DNA of 42,116 nt, taken from contig JAURWJ010000131.1 of the NCBI GenBank assembly GCA_030655015.1, positions 1 through 42,116 of the forward strand, in the 5' to 3' direction. The DNA comes from Methylotenera sp. GTDB taxonomy: Bacteria; Pseudomonadota; Gammaproteobacteria; Burkholderiales; Methylophilaceae. Shown here piece after piece: positions 35,832 through 42,116 of this stretch (its first letter is position 1; each line of letters starts with the position of its first letter). Below the pieces are notes generated by a model, which saw nothing but the letters and a program-made list of their open reading frames with translations, was not told the origin of the DNA and made no database searches. A program made the position numbers and the translations under genes.

Positions 35832-36179
35832 TTAATCAAACAAGATAGCTTCAAGTTTCCCGGCAACTTCTTCCATAATGAAATCAGGGGTCACTTCTTT
35901 GAACTCGGCTTTTCTAACACGCCAATCCAGTGACTTTAATTGATGGCAATGCACTCCACCTTGAGTTTCAGTACCCGAACCCATGAGTGTTACTACAGTG
36001 CCAACAGAACGCGCGTTAGCAGCTGCGCCTTGTGAAATAGGACATATCATCGCCAACCCGCTACTGTTGAAAATTTTATCACTGATGACCAAGCCATAAT
36101 GTTTACCCAGCATGTCTTTACCTGAAGCTGGATCAAAGGTTAGGTGGACAATATCCCCGCGCTTTGGCATGTACGCCAT
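35832..36179 (-). CDS. MazF/PemK-family toxin
   Basis: This is a putative mRNA-cleaving toxin of the PemK/MazF (CcdB-fold) family (115 aa). Signatures are KRGDIVHLTFDPASGKDMLGKHYGLVIS at the N-terminus, AMICPISQG, and VHCHQLKSLDWRVRKAEFKE, matching the usual R/G-containing loops and the hQ-S-D block. Its ATG overlaps the antitoxin stop by one base (antitoxin first), the classical order for translational coupling. The activity is inferred from the family; the catalytic set seems complete. Confidence 0.88.
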   Translation of the reverse strand: MAYMPKRGDIVHLTFDPASGKDMLGKHYGLVISDKIFNSSGLAMICPISQGAAANARSVGTVVTLMGSGTETQGGVHCHQLKSLDWRVRKAEFKEVTPDFIMEEVAGKLEAILFD

Positions 36180-36430
36180 TAAGTAGCTTCCAGTCCGACA
36201 GATTGCATTTCATCCCAGCCTTCAACACGTGGTAATCCATTGGGCATTTCTGCCATTAAATCTTCAATCCTGTAATGCTTTCTGTTGGGTTTTGGTGCGG
36301 TAATTGTCATCCGTTCGCCATCTAGCATCAGGTTTACTTTTGAACCTTCGTGAAGCTTGTTTTGCTCAATGAACGCCTTTGGCACGGTCATTACCAATGA
36401 GCCGCCTGCTCGTCTTAATGATTGCAACAT
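36179..36430 (-). CDS. MazE-like AbrB-type antitoxin
   Basis: This 83-aa antitoxin has an N-terminal swapped-hairpin (AbrB/MazE) DNA-binding domain: LRRAGGSLVMTVPKAFIEQNKLHEGSKVNLMLDGERMTITA. An acidic C-terminal tail (IEDLMAEMPNGLPRVEGWDEM) presumably wraps the toxin. ATG 36430 is set by AAGGAG seven nt upstream; a TTG six nt earlier is too close to that site. A palindrome overlapping its putative promoter would serve as the autoregulatory operator. Confidence 0.87.
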   Translation of the reverse strand: MLQSLRRAGGSLVMTVPKAFIEQNKLHEGSKVNLMLDGERMTITAPKPNRKHYRIEDLMAEMPNGLPRVEGWDEMQSVGLEAT

Positions 36431-36452
36431 TTCCAAGCTCCTTACAAATAAT

Positions 36453-36647: not shown

Positions 36648-37583
36648 TTAATCCTCTCTTTTACCCTTTATTGAGGCATAGCTTGGCTCATTTGACCAAG
36701 TTGCCATTCTATTTCCATAAAGAATTGCCTGTAGCTTCGGCGCTTCTTCATCGGTTGCTTGGCGTCCGAATTTTAGAAAGAACTCATAACGCATCCTGTC
36801 CATTTGGGTGTTGCTAAACCCTTCGTTTCTTGCTCTATTGGGAGTGGGTATGTGAGTTTGAGGTCTAGTTAAGGTGTTCCGTTGCGTTTTGATTGCAGGT
36901 TTTCTGGCATGGCGCATAGCCGCCCGAACTTTGTCGATAAATATCCGCTCTGCTTCTCTTTGCTTAGGATGAAATAGCCAGCGTTTTGAGTTTATGTCAT
37001 TTTTAAGTTTGGTGTAGAGCTCTTCTCTTGATAGGATGGCGTCTACTAAATCTAAATGTATTTCAATTGCTGGTAAGCCCTGCTTTCTGATGTGTCGCAA
37101 TTTGTTTCTATCTACCTTATGAGTTACCGCTATTTCAACGAATAACCTCTTTGAGTTTGATTCTAAGGTTACGTCAGGGGTGAACCTGTCCTCCGCTTGC
37201 TCTATGAACGCCATTGATATAGGCACTTCTCCACCATTGGCTACAATCTGCTCATGTCTAACTGGAGTATAGCTGCGCTTTAATACTTTTTCTTTTTCAA
37301 ATTTGTACTGAGGCAAAACAACACTAGTTAACTCCTTGAATAGTTCTTTAGCTAATAAATGAAGTGCTGTTTCAGCTGCACCAGAGCATTCTGTATCTGC
37401 TGCATGTGCAAAGTGATCAATTCTTTCTGGGCCTTTTTTTGCAATAAGTGGTTTTCCACATGCTACACATTTACAGTCGCACGCCAATCCTCTTGTAACA
37501 ACTGAAATATGTACGAGTTGATTGTTTTTGAGGGCATAAGCCGTTTTATGCTCTTTGACTCTATAAATTTGGAAGTTACTCAT
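36648..37583 (-). CDS. CoiA-like PD-(D/E)XK nuclease-family protein
   Basis: This 311-aa protein has an N-terminal zinc-ribbon-like region (C35, C37, C39, C42 in CDCKCVACGKP, then HFAHAADTEC with H57/H60/C66). The ETALHLLAKELF helix follows, the arrangement seen in CoiA-type competence/nuclease proteins. The putative nuclease core reads T-P-D137-V ... F-V-E150-I-A-V-T-H and K161, matching PD-(D/E)XK chemistry. The C-terminal ~90 residues are Arg-rich and probably bind nucleic acid. A role in DNA processing or defence is inferred from the fold and from its place beside a toxin-antitoxin pair. It lies 12 nt downstream of the desaturase gene on the same strand. Confidence 0.72.
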   Translation of the reverse strand: MSNFQIYRVKEHKTAYALKNNQLVHISVVTRGLACDCKCVACGKPLIAKKGPERIDHFAHAADTECSGAAETALHLLAKELFKELTSVVLPQYKFEKEKVLKRSYTPVRHEQIVANGGEVPISMAFIEQAEDRFTPDVTLESNSKRLFVEIAVTHKVDRNKLRHIRKQGLPAIEIHLDLVDAILSREELYTKLKNDINSKRWLFHPKQREAERIFIDKVRAAMRHARKPAIKTQRNTLTRPQTHIPTPNRARNEGFSNTQMDRMRYEFFLKFGRQATDEEAPKLQAILYGNRMATWSNEPSYASIKGKRED

Positions 37584-37595
37584 TCTCTTATTAAG

Positions 37596-38456
37596 CTACT
37601 CATTATTCGCGTAGTTTTTGACCTCACCATCCACCACATCAGGCGACAAGCCCAAGCTGGTCGTTTGCCTTGTCACTCGAAATGGCAGCCACAGCAATTG
37701 CCACAAACCAAGACGAGATTGTTCTCGAATATAAGGTAACCCCAGCGCCACCTTTTCATGGCCTGCACTCGGAGGTGCATGATGATAAGTGCCACAGAGT
37801 CGATCCCATATCGATAGAAAAAAACCAAAATTGGTATCCATTTCATCACGACTTATTGAATGATGCACGCGGTGCATGTTGGGCGTGACGAACAACCATC
37901 GTAGTATCCAATCCAGTCGATCCGGGTAGCGAATATTAGCGTGGGTAAACACAGCGGCACCGTTAAGCGTTGCTTCAAATGCGATGACCACCCAAGGATC
38001 AATACCAAGTGCGGCGACTATCGCAGCTTTATAAATCAAAGAAATGATAATTTCTATGGGGTGAAAACGCAGCCCGCTACTGGCATCAATATCCAAATCA
38101 GCATGATGCATGCTATGTAACCGCCAGAAAACGGGCAAGGCATGGGACATCACGTGCTGTAAATAAATGGCAAAATCCAGCATCAGGAATGCAATCAACG
38201 CCTCTGCCCAGAACGGCAGATCGAGCACGCTCATTAATCCCCAGCCGTGGTCTTGTGCATAAACTGCTGTCAGATATGCGGCAGCTCCTAAGGTGAAACG
38301 CTGCACAAGAACATCAATGCCAACCAAACTGAAATTAATCACCCAACGCCCTACCCTAGGCTGCGTTGGTGGGCGTTTGGGAAATAGGAGTTCCAACCAT
38401 ACAGCAAGCAGATAAACACCCAAGAAAATACCAAATCGTAAATATGCCTCCACCAA
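37596..38456 (-). CDS. Sterol desaturase / fatty acid hydroxylase family membrane protein
   Basis: This is a non-haem di-iron membrane oxygenase (about 286 aa). The histidine boxes are complete: HVMSH, HSMHH and HRVHH (H103-H107, H116-H120 and H197-H201 counted from TTG 38462), with extra His at RFHP and THAN. Four to five hydrophobic helices are visible. There is no ATG: TTG 38456 or GTG 38453 lies at a good distance from GGAG, while TTG 38462 is too close. The substrate (lipid hydroxylation or desaturation) is unknown. It is divergent from the organoarsenical cluster across a 205-bp gap. Confidence 0.85.
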   Translation of the reverse strand: MVEAYLRFGIFLGVYLLAVWLELLFPKRPPTQPRVGRWVINFSLVGIDVLVQRFTLGAAAYLTAVYAQDHGWGLMSVLDLPFWAEALIAFLMLDFAIYLQHVMSHALPVFWRLHSMHHADLDIDASSGLRFHPIEIIISLIYKAAIVAALGIDPWVVIAFEATLNGAAVFTHANIRYPDRLDWILRWLFVTPNMHRVHHSISRDEMDTNFGFFLSIWDRLCGTYHHAPPSAGHEKVALGLPYIREQSRLGLWQLLWLPFRVTRQTTSLGLSPDVVDGEVKNYANNE

Positions 38457-38576
38457 GGACAACTCCTATCGACTAAAACCAAATATCTAAAAACTACTCC
38501 AATCACTATAATCTTTAAAGCAATCTTTGCAAAATAGTTCATCACTCAAGTAAAAGTGATTACCTGCGCATAAAAT

Positions 38577-38661: not shown

Positions 38662-39381
38662 ATGACCCAGCCGACATTAGTTTTAGTATGCAAGCGACCC
38701 GCGCTAGGTGTTGGCAAACAACGTCTTGCTGCAAAAATTGGACAGGAGACTGCACTGAAAATTGCAGAGGCACTACTTGCCTGCGCAATGGAAGACGTTC
38801 TGGCTTGGTCTGGTACTGTTGTCATTGCACCAGCAGATGCTAAAGACTGCCAATGGGCGACTAATAGTTTTAAACAAACACATACCGATGTAATGGTGCT
38901 GCCCCAAGTCGGCGGCAATCTAGGCCAACGCCTGAATGCACTAGATTGTGCATTACGTAGCAGTGGCTTTAATCAGCTGATATACATCGGGAGCGATGCA
39001 CCAGATATTGGTATCACCGACTATATTGCAGCAAGCGATGCATTTTTAAATGTTGATACTATGCTCAAACCTACGATTGATGGCGGTGTCTCTATCATGG
39101 CTAGCTGCAAACCGTGGCCGGATCTTACCCATTTACCATGGAGCACTTCGCAATTGGGTGACGGCTTATCTTTACTGTGCCAACAAAATGGACATGTTAT
39201 TGGCAAGCTACCAGTGGGATTTGACGTGGATGAATTTGAAGATTTACCTTACTTGGTGGTGAAGCTCGCACAAGATCAACGCCCTGCCAGACGCGCGCTT
39301 CTAGCGTTGGCACGCCAAATTATTCAGCAAAAAACCTCTAAACAAAAGGTGATGATGCCGAGCGAAGGCAATTATGTCTAA
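38662..39381 (+). CDS. TIGR04282-type transferase (DUF2064, arsenosugar-biosynthesis-associated)
   Basis: This 239-aa nucleotidyltransferase/glycosyltransferase-fold protein belongs to the DUF2064 family. The N-terminal block LVLVCKRPALGVGKQRLAAKIG matches the family's K-P-x-x-G-x-x-K-x-R-L-A motif. LIYIGSDAPDIGITDYIAASDAF is the conserved GSDxP region, and PTIDGGVSIMASC follows. Family members are annotated as arsenosugar-biosynthesis or rSAM-associated transferases; the exact sugar donor is unknown. The next gene's ATG overlaps its 3' end by 8 bp. The ORF is open upstream to 38614, but the promoter placement favours 38662. Confidence 0.85.
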   Translation: MTQPTLVLVCKRPALGVGKQRLAAKIGQETALKIAEALLACAMEDVLAWSGTVVIAPADAKDCQWATNSFKQTHTDVMVLPQVGGNLGQRLNALDCALRSSGFNQLIYIGSDAPDIGITDYIAASDAFLNVDTMLKPTIDGGVSIMASCKPWPDLTHLPWSTSQLGDGLSLLCQQNGHVIGKLPVGFDVDEFEDLPYLVVKLAQDQRPARRALLALARQIIQQKTSKQKVMMPSEGNYV

Positions 39382-40087
39382 AGTAAGCATTATTATTCCA
39401 TGCTATAACGATGAACAAAAGCTGGCGCAACTGTTAGCGCAATTACAGCATTTGCTGCACACGCCGATTGAGGTGATTGTGGTTGATGGTGCGGCTAGCT
39501 TGGCGTGTGAAAAAATATGCAAGCAATATCAAGCACACTGGCTACCAAGCGAGCCTTGTCGCGGCAAACAGCTACTTGCAGGTGCGGCAACGGCACAAGG
39601 TGATGCACTGTGGTTTTTACATGCCGATGCACACGTGCCAACAGACCCGATAACAGTGATACAGATCGCACTCGAAAAAGGCGCGCTGGGTGGCTACTTT
39701 AAATTCAAGTTTGATGCCCCGCGCGCTTGGCCTGCATTTATTTTAGAGCCGGCTATTGCACTACGTTGCCGCTATGGTATCCCTTATGGGGACCAAGGCT
39801 TATTCATGACCAAGCAAGCTTATGTTGAAGCTGGCGGACATGCTCCCTGGCCTTTGTTTGAAGAAGTACCATTGGTTAAAAATTTACGCAAATTAGGCCA
39901 TTTTGTTGCTTTGGATGCGCCTTTATTGGTTGACCCAAGGCGCTGGCAACATGATGGCTGGTGGCATCGCACCTGGGAAAACCGCAAGCTGGCACTGGCT
40001 TTTGTACGCGGAAATGCTCCGCAGAAATTAGCAGCACGCTATCGCAGCCACATTACCAATTTTAATGACGAAAAAAACGAGGCATAA
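39374..40087 (+). CDS. TIGR04283-type GT2 glycosyltransferase (arsenosugar-biosynthesis-associated)
   Basis: This is a family-2 glycosyltransferase of 237 aa. KVSIIIPCYNDEQKLAQLLAQL and EVIVVDGAAS form the nucleotide-binding N-terminus. FLHADAHVP supplies the DxD-like metal site, and YGIPYGDQGLFMTKQAYVEAGG with PLFEEVPLVKNLRKLG are strongly family-specific for TIGR04283. A GAAGG ribosome site lies within the preceding gene, and the start overlaps it by 8 bp, indicating coupling. It ends 1 nt before the arsM-like start. A role in attaching sugar to an organoarsenical is inferred from known family neighbourhoods. Confidence 0.88.
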   Translation: MSKVSIIIPCYNDEQKLAQLLAQLQHLLHTPIEVIVVDGAASLACEKICKQYQAHWLPSEPCRGKQLLAGAATAQGDALWFLHADAHVPTDPITVIQIALEKGALGGYFKFKFDAPRAWPAFILEPAIALRCRYGIPYGDQGLFMTKQAYVEAGGHAPWPLFEEVPLVKNLRKLGHFVALDAPLLVDPRRWQHDGWWHRTWENRKLALAFVRGNAPQKLAARYRSHITNFNDEKNEA

Positions 40088-40088
40088 C

Positions 40089-41168
40089 ATGCAAGAAACC
40101 ATAATAAAAAAAGGTCAAGCCGAGATACAGGATAATGTACGCCAGTATTATGGCGAAACACTGACAGGCTCGGTGGATTTACAAACTAACGCCTGTTGCA
40201 CGGATGCGGGGCTGCCTAATTATGTGAAGCCTATACTATCGCAAGTGCATGATGAGGTGCTGATGCGTTACTACGGTTGCGGCTTGGTACTGCCAGAACT
40301 GCTGGATGGCCTAACTATACTTGATCTCGGCTGCGGTGCCGGGCGTGACGTTTATGTGCTATCTAAATTAGTCGGTGAACAAGGTCGTGTCATTGGTGTA
40401 GATATGACTGAAGAACAGTTGGCCGTGGCACGTCAGCATCAAGACCATCACCGTCAGGTATTTGGTCATGCGGAGAGCAACGTACTATTTTTACATGGCT
40501 ATATTGAGCGTTTGCACGAATTAGATTTGGACGACAACAGTGTAGATATTATCGTGTCCAATTGTGTCATTAACTTGGCCGTGGATAAAGCCGCAGTGCT
40601 AAGTGAGGCATTCCGCGTACTCAAATCTGGTGGCGAGCTGTATTTTTCAGACGTATATGCAGATAGGCGCATCCCGAAAGCACTCACACTTGACCCTGTT
40701 TTATATGGTGAATGCCTAAGTGGTGCACTGTACTGGAATGACTTTCACAATCTGGCAAAAGCGCATGGCTTTGATGATCCACGCTTGGTGGTCGACCGCC
40801 CGATTACCATTGGCAATAGTGAGTTAGCGGCGCGTACCGGCAATATCAAGTTTTTCTCAGCGACTTATCGCTTATTCAAATTGGCAGGCTTAGAGCCAGC
40901 TTGCGAGGACTACGGGCAATCGGTTGTATATCGCGGCACCATCCAGCATCATCCGCATGCTTTTATTTTAGATAAACATCACTTTATTGAAACCGGCAAA
41001 CACTTCCCTGTATGCGGCAATACTTGGCGCATGCTGCACGACACACGCTTTGCCAAGCATTTTGATTTTTATGGCAATTTTGACAAACACTTTGGCATTT
41101 TTGAAGGTTGCGGTGCAGCTCTTCCTTATGATGGCAATGCCAGCGATCAAACAGGTGGGTGCTGCTAA
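40089..41168 (+). CDS. arsM: ArsM-like arsenite S-adenosylmethionine methyltransferase
   Basis: This 359-aa class I methyltransferase has SAM motif I LTILDLGCGAGRDVYVLSKLVG and post-I VIGVDMTEEQL. The arsenic-binding cysteines of ArsM are all placed: C36/C37 in TNACCTD, C64 in YYGCGLVLPE, C159 in SNCVINL and C209 in GECLSGAL. They correspond to the four-Cys set known in ArsM/AS3MT. The C-terminus ends GGCC (vicinal Cys). ATG 40089 has CGAGG seven nt upstream; an in-frame start at 40065 would overlap the glycosyltransferase. It methylates As(III) stepwise; here the product probably feeds arsenosugar or a related compound made by the neighbours. Confidence 0.92.
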   Translation: MQETIIKKGQAEIQDNVRQYYGETLTGSVDLQTNACCTDAGLPNYVKPILSQVHDEVLMRYYGCGLVLPELLDGLTILDLGCGAGRDVYVLSKLVGEQGRVIGVDMTEEQLAVARQHQDHHRQVFGHAESNVLFLHGYIERLHELDLDDNSVDIIVSNCVINLAVDKAAVLSEAFRVLKSGGELYFSDVYADRRIPKALTLDPVLYGECLSGALYWNDFHNLAKAHGFDDPRLVVDRPITIGNSELAARTGNIKFFSATYRLFKLAGLEPACEDYGQSVVYRGTIQHHPHAFILDKHHFIETGKHFPVCGNTWRMLHDTRFAKHFDFYGNFDKHFGIFEGCGAALPYDGNASDQTGGCC

Positions 41169-41193
41169 TTGCGGCAGCGTATAAAAGTGGACA

Positions 41194-42116
41194 TGAAAGT
41201 TATTCCTATTCAAGTAGCACCGCTAGCAAAGTCGCCAGCTTGGTATCAAACTCCAGCTGGTGAGCCGCGCGGCTTTATACAGCCTCACGCGTTAGATGAG
41301 CTTTGGTTTCATACTGGCACAGCCTGCAACCTTGCTTGCCCGTTTTGCCTGGAAGGCTCGAAACCTAGCGACACACGCTTGCAATTGCTACGTTTAGCCG
41401 ATGCTAAACCATTTATAGATGAAGCGCTCACCTTAGGCGTGAAGCAGTTTTCATTTACAGGTGGTGAGCCGTTTATTGCAAAAGATATGGTAAAAATTCT
41501 CGATTACGCCTTGCAGTTTCGTCCATGCCACGTGCTCACCAACGCTACTGAACCGCTTATCAAACGCTTAAAACAGCTTAAGCCTTTGCTACAGCATCAA
41601 AATAAACTGCACTTTCGTGTCAGTTTAGACCACTTTGAAGCGTCTAAGCATGACATAGGACGTGGTGCTGGCATGTTTGATTTAGCGTTGCAAGGTTTGC
41701 GGGCATTGCAAGAGATGGGGTTTTCGGTCTCTGTTGCCAATCAAATGCTGATAGACAGCACACCAGAAGAAACTGCACGACAATTTAAAACGGTTTTTAA
41801 AATGGCTGGCTTACCAGAAGATTTACACCGTGTGGAGTTCCCCGATTTTCATCCACCTGGCTTGAATGTAGCAACGCCACAAATCAGCGCCAACTGCATG
41901 GTGACTTACCAAACTAAAGACTCGCGCCGTGCCTATATGTGCGCTTTTAGCAAAATGGTGATTAAAGAACAAGGCAAAATGCGCGTATATGCTTGCTCGC
42001 TGGTGGATGACGATGCTGATTATGGCCTGGCTGACACGCTCACTGAAAGTATGCAGCAGGCCGTGAGCATGAAGCACCACCGCTGCTATAGTTGCTTCAA
42101 ATATGGGGCTTCTTGC
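41194..42116 (+). CDS. Radical SAM protein of the organoarsenical cluster (partial, 3' end cut)
   Basis: 307 residues are present and the frame is still open at the window edge. The radical SAM cluster motif is C45-N-L-A-C49-P-F-C52 in HTGTACNLACPFCLEG, followed by FTGGEPF (from 88), HVLTNATEP, and HFRVSLDHFEASKHD. The C-terminal part has many further cysteines (SANCMV, AYMCAF, VYACSLV, and RCYSCFKYGASC at the very end), which could ligate an auxiliary cluster. ATG 41194 is 25 bp after arsM; an in-frame GTG at 41188 is possible. In arsenosugar pathways a radical SAM enzyme transfers a 5'-deoxyadenosyl group to methylated arsenic, so this is the likely counterpart. I cannot equate it with ArsS by eye. 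Confidence 0.82.

Follow-up and report, generated by a model that had tools for sequence, protein, structure and literature searches.

According to excerpts of PMC12159101, the known makers of carbon–arsenic (C–As) bonds are methyltransferases and two radical S-adenosylmethionine (SAM) enzymes, to which a proposed SAM-independent route to bisenarsan is added. In arsenosugar synthesis radical SAM enzymes attach an adenosyl group to arsenic, and in the synthesis of arsinothricin they transfer an aminocarboxypropyl group (excerpts of PMC12159101 and PMC8552651); the ArsM–ArsS arsenosugar pathway is described for Synechocystis (excerpt of PMC8552651). The window analysed here spans contig C12 from end to end (42,116 bases) and comes from a draft genome (2.34 Mb, 85% complete, 5.6% contaminated); the closest relatives with a name are Methylotenera, with 97% identity in the radical SAM protein. 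Four plus-strand open reading frames (ORFs) in a row fill positions 38662–42116. We consider it fairly probable that this operon makes an arsenosugar-type compound and that the C–As bond step is carried out by a radical SAM family other than ArsS, standing in the ArsS position. The radical SAM protein is called RSAM below. The four genes and one neighbour are:

38662..39381, + strand: TIGR04282-like (DUF2064) transferase, 239 amino acids (NCBIfam TIGR04282, Pfam DUF2064)
39374..40087, + strand: TIGR04283 family-2 glycosyltransferase, 237 amino acids (NCBIfam, 198 bits; clade of RSAM-linked TIGR04283)
40089..41168, + strand: ArsM As(III) SAM methyltransferase, 359 amino acids, four conserved cysteines (alignments with PDB 5evj and 4kw7)
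41193..42116, + strand: radical SAM protein RSAM, 308 amino acids (family without NCBIfam model; CX3CX2C motif)
37596..38462, − strand: FA_hydroxylase (PF04116) membrane protein, divergent from the operon, possible accessory (Pfam)

A sequence-only reading had described four closely spaced or overlapping plus-strand genes here, and the ORFs were found as described. The TIGR04282-like and TIGR04283 genes overlap by 8 nt, the TIGR04283–ArsM gap is 1 nt, and the ArsM–RSAM gap is 24 nt. The operon gene order recurs in Methylophilaceae and Nitrosomonadaceae, and ten family models gave no match in any of 20 control loci; the four-gene grouping is therefore not chance. The RSAM ORF (41193–42116) has no stop and runs to the contig end at 42116; the gene lacks roughly its last 3 codons and the stop, the proteins of close relatives being longer by 3 or 4 residues. 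Methylotenera and Nitrosomonadaceae carry a fifth gene 3' of RSAM, about 710 codons long, in which a VTT domain (PF09335) is joined to a mercuric-reductase-like pyridine nucleotide-disulphide oxidoreductase (VTT-flavoprotein). The proposed look past 42116 met the end of the contig and, in the same genome, the 3' part of this fifth gene: bases 1–1296 of contig C4 encode residues 279–710 of the VTT-flavoprotein, at 96% identity with the G016 protein. Because this 3' part begins contig C4, the operon very probably continues across the assembly gap from C12 into C4.

The partner families of RSAM recur in the 20 ArsS loci that we compared: TIGR04282 and TIGR04283 and, in part of those loci, ArsM, VTT, flavoprotein, DUF547 and FA_hydroxylase. 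The operon differs from the ArsM–ArsS arsenosugar pathway, reportedly described by Cheng et al. in 2021, in that its radical SAM protein belongs to another family and the RSAM-linked TIGR04283 proteins form a clade of their own; RSAM-linked ArsM also differs in score from ArsS-linked ArsM, with the exception of locus L106. As in the ArsQML arsinothricin cluster of Burkholderia gladioli (excerpts of PMC8552651), ArsM stands with a radical SAM protein that has the canonical CX3CX2C motif. Unlike ArsQML, the RSAM operon contains glycosyltransferases, and no arsQ-like gene was noticed among the adjacent ORFs scanned, though no model search for arsQ was made.

On its profile scores, RSAM is assigned to a radical SAM family without an NCBIfam model and distinct from ArsS. 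The ArsS model TIGR04167 gave 44.4 bits against a cut-off of 300, with the match limited to the barrel (positions 3–153 of 303). Among the 25 of 44 NCBIfam matches listed, the best was Rv1681 (NF049973; 99 bits vs cut-off 380), and no cut-off was reached. The Rv1681 model gave 89–114 bits with the window RSAM and three relatives, so that the nearest NCBIfam model matches far under its cut-off and mainly over the barrel; we know of no arsenic link for this family. Peptide maturases are also among the weak matches. The CX3CX2C motif at C45/C49/C52 is invariant in 44/44 sequences, as are nine cysteines in all, three in the motif and six C-terminal. The C-terminal consensus of ArsS (22 aligned sequences) is HCYGCTAGxGSSCGG vs HHRCYSCFxYGASCSE in RSAM, which lacks the ArsS stretch. 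The assignment of RSAM to ArsS itself was rejected, on the 44 bits vs 300 and because no TIGR04167 match above cut-off was found in the draft genome of the window. An arsenosugar-type biosynthetic cluster, as proposed from the sequence, is still the best reading of the locus; the part of that proposal which does not hold is the radical SAM protein as a known arsenosugar enzyme.

The TIGR04283 model gave 198.4 bits against its cut-off of 182, which bears out the glycosyltransferase assignment. The product of 38662–39381 is, by profile comparison, a divergent TIGR04282 relative: the proposed TIGR04282 membership is backed by a match over the full profile (1–189 of 189) and Pfam DUF2064 is above its own cut-off, but the TIGR04282 score (96.1 bits vs 134) lies under the cut-off. 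TIGR04282 is named after CofC, and the protein could be a nucleotidyltransferase that activates the sugar. ArsM aligned with PDB 5evj (E = 1.4e-101, residues 7–353 of 359) and 4kw7 (E = 7.8e-90), and its four cysteines, already pointed out in the sequence-only reading, align with those of the solved ArsM chains; we take them to be the arsenic-binding ones. The protein stays under the cut-offs of the NCBIfam ArsM models among the matches listed, including AsSugarArsM (NF038099; 91.8 bits vs cut-off 400).

A scan of genome contigs gave 43 RSAM relatives from five phyla, the phylum labels being partly from tree work: Pseudomonadota (Methylophilaceae, Nitrosomonadaceae, gammaproteobacteria), Verrucomicrobiota, Lentisphaerota, Fibrobacterota (Chitinivibrionales) and Thermodesulfobacteriota (Desulfuromonadales). 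RSAM is rare, occurring in 3/300 genomes of the order, 6/321 of the class and 5/37 of the genus, with the genome of the window counted in each. Strain-named carriers include Nitrosovibrio tenuis Nv1 and Desulfuromusa kysingii DSM 7343. A divergent relative in genome G579 (L122:7856-8749, − strand, 220 bits) has a different CX3CX2C context and C-terminus; that genome has TIGR04283 and no ArsS match.

RSAM and ArsS largely exclude each other across the genomes surveyed. In a set of 61 related genomes (RSAM at E ≤ 1e-20, TIGR04283 by curated cut-off, with an ArsS search of the same genomes), RSAM was present in 6 (G000, G016, G024, G030, G033, G051) and ArsS in 11 (G019, G038, G039, G041, G046, G048, G052, G054, G056, G058, G059, of which G019 is in the same genus as the window). 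TIGR04283 was over cut-off in 17: every one of the RSAM and ArsS genomes just listed and no other, the two groups being disjoint; G050 gave a weak extra TIGR04283 match of 77 bits. Under random placement, all 6 RSAM genomes fall inside the 17 with p = 2e-4, and disjointness given the 17 has p = 8e-5, but 5/6 of the RSAM genomes are one genus, so these probabilities overstate independence. In 321 genomes of the class (ArsS E ≤ 1e-50, TIGR04283 E ≤ 1e-48, RSAM E ≤ 1e-40), ArsS was found in 158, TIGR04283 in 165 and RSAM in 6, with RSAM and ArsS together in none. TIGR04283 is indeed a companion of ArsS, as had been claimed: 152/165 TIGR04283 genomes have ArsS. Among the 165, RSAM occurs in 4/13 without ArsS vs 0/152 with it (Fisher p = 2e-5, or 3e-4 minus the genome of the window). 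When G579 is dropped, the first count becomes 3/13 (p = 4e-4, or 0.005 minus the genome of the window), and RSAM is associated with TIGR04283 among ArsS-lacking class genomes at p = 0.004 (0.028 minus that genome). RSAM against ArsS alone gave p = 0.03 with G579 and 0.06 without it in the class sample. ArsS at E ≤ 1e-30 was not found in 42/43 RSAM-carrying genomes, whereas TIGR04283 was over cut-off in 35 of the 43 and present at E ≤ 1e-20 in 41.

RSAM and ArsS also have partner genes in common. We compared 47 RSAM loci (L060 equals L118 in sequence, leaving 46 distinct; the window was left out), 20 ArsS loci hand-picked from the upper score list rather than at random, and 20 control loci of about 15 kb each, drawn from elsewhere in 4 RSAM genomes and in 16 of those that gave the ArsS loci. 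The ArsS model was built from 14 ArsS sequences, those of the plus-strand loci among 30. The RSAM/ArsS/control counts, of which the RSAM figures are partly by construction since those same loci supplied the partner models, were 37/8/0 for ArsM, 34/18/0 for TIGR04282, 33/17/0 for TIGR04283, 29/7/0 for VTT, 28/8/0 for the flavoprotein, 6/2/0 for DUF547, 6/6/0 for FA_hydroxylase and 7/0/0 for a flavin-reductase-like gene; at E ≤ 1e-10 they take in weak matches (flavoprotein 38 and 167 bits, VTT 49, FNR 56). Matches of the RSAM model in 9 ArsS loci (38–50 bits) and of the ArsS model in L048 (39 bits) were taken as superfamily cross-matches. At the Lentisphaerota, Verrucomicrobiota and Fibrobacterota loci L048, L051, L054 and L055, RSAM forms a core with ArsM and a flavin-reductase-like protein (PF00970/PF00175 in the L048 scan), and neither TIGR04282 nor TIGR04283 adjoins it; in these genomes TIGR04283 matches elsewhere are under cut-off. 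RSAM lies outside the ArsS family, a placement on which the sequence-only reading had been prepared to give up its claim, but the exclusion pattern with ArsS and the partners in common suggest that RSAM is a substitute for ArsS.

The partner proteins were placed with quick trees whose branch support comes from the Shimodaira–Hasegawa-like approximate likelihood ratio test (SH-aLRT) only. L106 (G587) carries ArsS (467 bits), yet its ArsM and VTT-flavoprotein group among the RSAM-linked ones: the ArsM inside a group with SH-aLRT 100, beside L119 at 84 and on a branch flagged as long, and the flavoprotein inside a group of SH-aLRT 98. The ArsM tree holds only 2 ArsS-linked rows, the others being under the bit or length filter, and one of the two, L115, stands on an unreliable long branch. 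As L106 has ArsS together with an RSAM-type ArsM and VTT-flavoprotein, the radical SAM gene looks to have been exchanged within one kind of operon, in either direction. G517 (L124) and G360 (L125) have a TIGR04283/TIGR04282 pair of the ArsS-linked type with RSAM at another locus and no ArsS match, and in the Desulfuromonadales G367, G369 and G373 TIGR04283 groups with two ArsS-linked ones, away from RSAM, with ArsS not found. We regard it as moderately probable that a second radical SAM family, apart from ArsS and ArsL, forms C–As bonds and has displaced ArsS in otherwise comparable operons of the arsenosugar type, in methylotrophs, ammonia oxidisers and bacteria from four other phyla.

Several results weigh against such a displacement. 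By HMM (hidden Markov model) score, several other radical SAM families are at least as close to RSAM as ArsS is, and hhalign of RSAM with the profile of 22 ArsS sequences aligned the barrel only (columns 30–205, probability 98). For the C-terminal halves the hhalign score was 20.7, and 2/60 permuted controls were higher (maximum 21.4). A C-terminal domain common to RSAM and ArsS, suggestive by eye, was rejected, its score lying within those of the permuted profiles. The RSAM-linked TIGR04283 proteins, including that of the window, fall into a single long-branched clade (34 rows, SH-aLRT 100); this separate clade would fit specialisation, and the product may differ. TIGR04283 is not beside RSAM in 14/47 RSAM loci, which include all 5 Desulfuromonadales/Deltaproteobacteria loci as well as the Verrucomicrobiota, Lentisphaerota and Fibrobacterota loci. 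One genome has both RSAM and ArsS (L058/G375), 9/13 TIGR04283 genomes without ArsS are also without RSAM (10 if G579 is dropped), and in 6 ArsS genomes of the class sample no TIGR04283 match reached the threshold. Of the RSAM genomes in the 61-genome set, 4 are the same contigs as 4 of the 43, and many surveyed genomes are incomplete drafts. The ArsS match of G375 has one in-frame TGA, consistent with selenocysteine.

These results bear on three other explanations. RSAM might form a different C–As bond, for example with a 3-amino-3-carboxypropyl group as ArsL does or with a different radical-derived carbon, which would give a different glycosylated or lipid-linked organoarsenical. We hold this to be unlikely, although the ArsM–RSAM pairing is kept in other phyla without adjoining glycosyltransferases, and both the long-branch TIGR04283 clade and the lack of any special closeness of RSAM to ArsS fit it; the exact complementarity of RSAM and ArsS in the 61-genome set, the co-occurrence of RSAM with ArsS-type transferases in G517 and G360, and the absence of an ArsL-named model among the 25 of 44 NCBIfam matches listed argue the other way. 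That RSAM forms no C–As bond, and serves instead in the maturation or repair of another component or in altering an arsenosugar already made by another enzyme, is improbable: the peptide maturases among its weak NCBIfam matches point to it, but genomes with TIGR04283 and RSAM would then still need ArsS, which 42/43 RSAM genomes did not show, and no precursor-peptide gene turned up, though no search aimed at one. A pathway unrelated to arsenic, with ArsM and the radical SAM enzyme using another element or substrate, is very improbable, since ArsM matches solved As(III) methyltransferases (E = 1e-101) with four cysteines kept and the partner families are common to the cluster and the ArsS loci, even if the substrate assignments come from homology.

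With RSAM as the substitute for ArsS, the pathway would start with ArsM turning arsenite into dimethylarsenite, as its homology suggests. RSAM would then split SAM at the barrel cluster and, like ArsS, place the 5'-deoxyadenosyl group on dimethylarsenite, a role suggested by the genetic equivalence of the two enzymes. The six conserved C-terminal cysteines of RSAM could hold auxiliary Fe–S clusters or handle the arsenical. Adenine would next be removed by an enzyme, and the TIGR04282 and TIGR04283 proteins may either activate the arsenoribose and pass it to an acceptor or attach the acceptor to it. The MerA-like domains of the VTT-flavoprotein point to a membrane-linked, NAD(P)H-dependent reduction of a thiol or arsenical. 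The predicted product would be a dimethylarsinoyl-ribose derivative with a further group.

Other genes were observed around these loci. Phosphate-transporter-like genes (periplasmic binding protein, permeases, ATPase; families scanned in L031 proteins only) lie near RSAM on the same strand under 14 locus ids, 13 of them distinct, and the ATPase gene is present in 12/14. They stand 3' of the VTT-flavoprotein at L016/L025, L027, L030-L034, L038, L040, L053 and L061, the arrangement of Nitrosospira-type loci, whereas at L037 and L059 of Nitrosomonas they are part of the operon and separate RSAM from the VTT-flavoprotein. Because arsenate enters cells through phosphate transporters, these adjoining genes fit arsenic handling, without being proof of it. 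Near the operon of Methylotenera and Nitrosomonas a DinB-FGE-sulfatase-methyltransferase fusion occurs beside a class I/II aminotransferase (L158:3771-7075 on the own contig C4, L014/L019, L026, L037, L059); the fusions are 70–94% and the aminotransferases 67–69% identical, an architecture that we take to be that of ovothiol synthesis (OvoA/OvoB). The FA_hydroxylase-family protein of the window may, speculatively, act on an arsenic-containing lipid, as the family is also found in 6/20 ArsS loci. An extracytoplasmic function (ECF) sigma factor with a zf-HC2 anti-sigma-like partner was detected at L024:3612-4441 and L098:4999-5863, the two loci scanned for it; the sequence clusters holding these proteins occur in 6/20 ArsS loci and in 5/47 (sigma) and 2/47 (partner) RSAM loci, with no control set for these families. 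The window also contains a protein with a CoiA N-terminal domain (36648–37583, − strand) and a MazE/PemK-like antitoxin–toxin pair (35832–36436, − strand).

The arsenosugar-type operon is of a known kind, and the proposed exchange of its key enzyme would be the new part. No account of a second arsenosugar-type radical SAM family was found in the open-licence literature, a scope outside which the original ArsS papers lie, so this is weak evidence of novelty. If RSAM does take the place of ArsS, it would be a further family of C–As bond-forming enzymes, of which few are known, and the strain-named carriers make the prediction probably testable in culture. Surveys based on ArsS only would then miss arsenosugar-type capacity in such groups as Nitrosospira, Nitrosomonas and Methylotenera.

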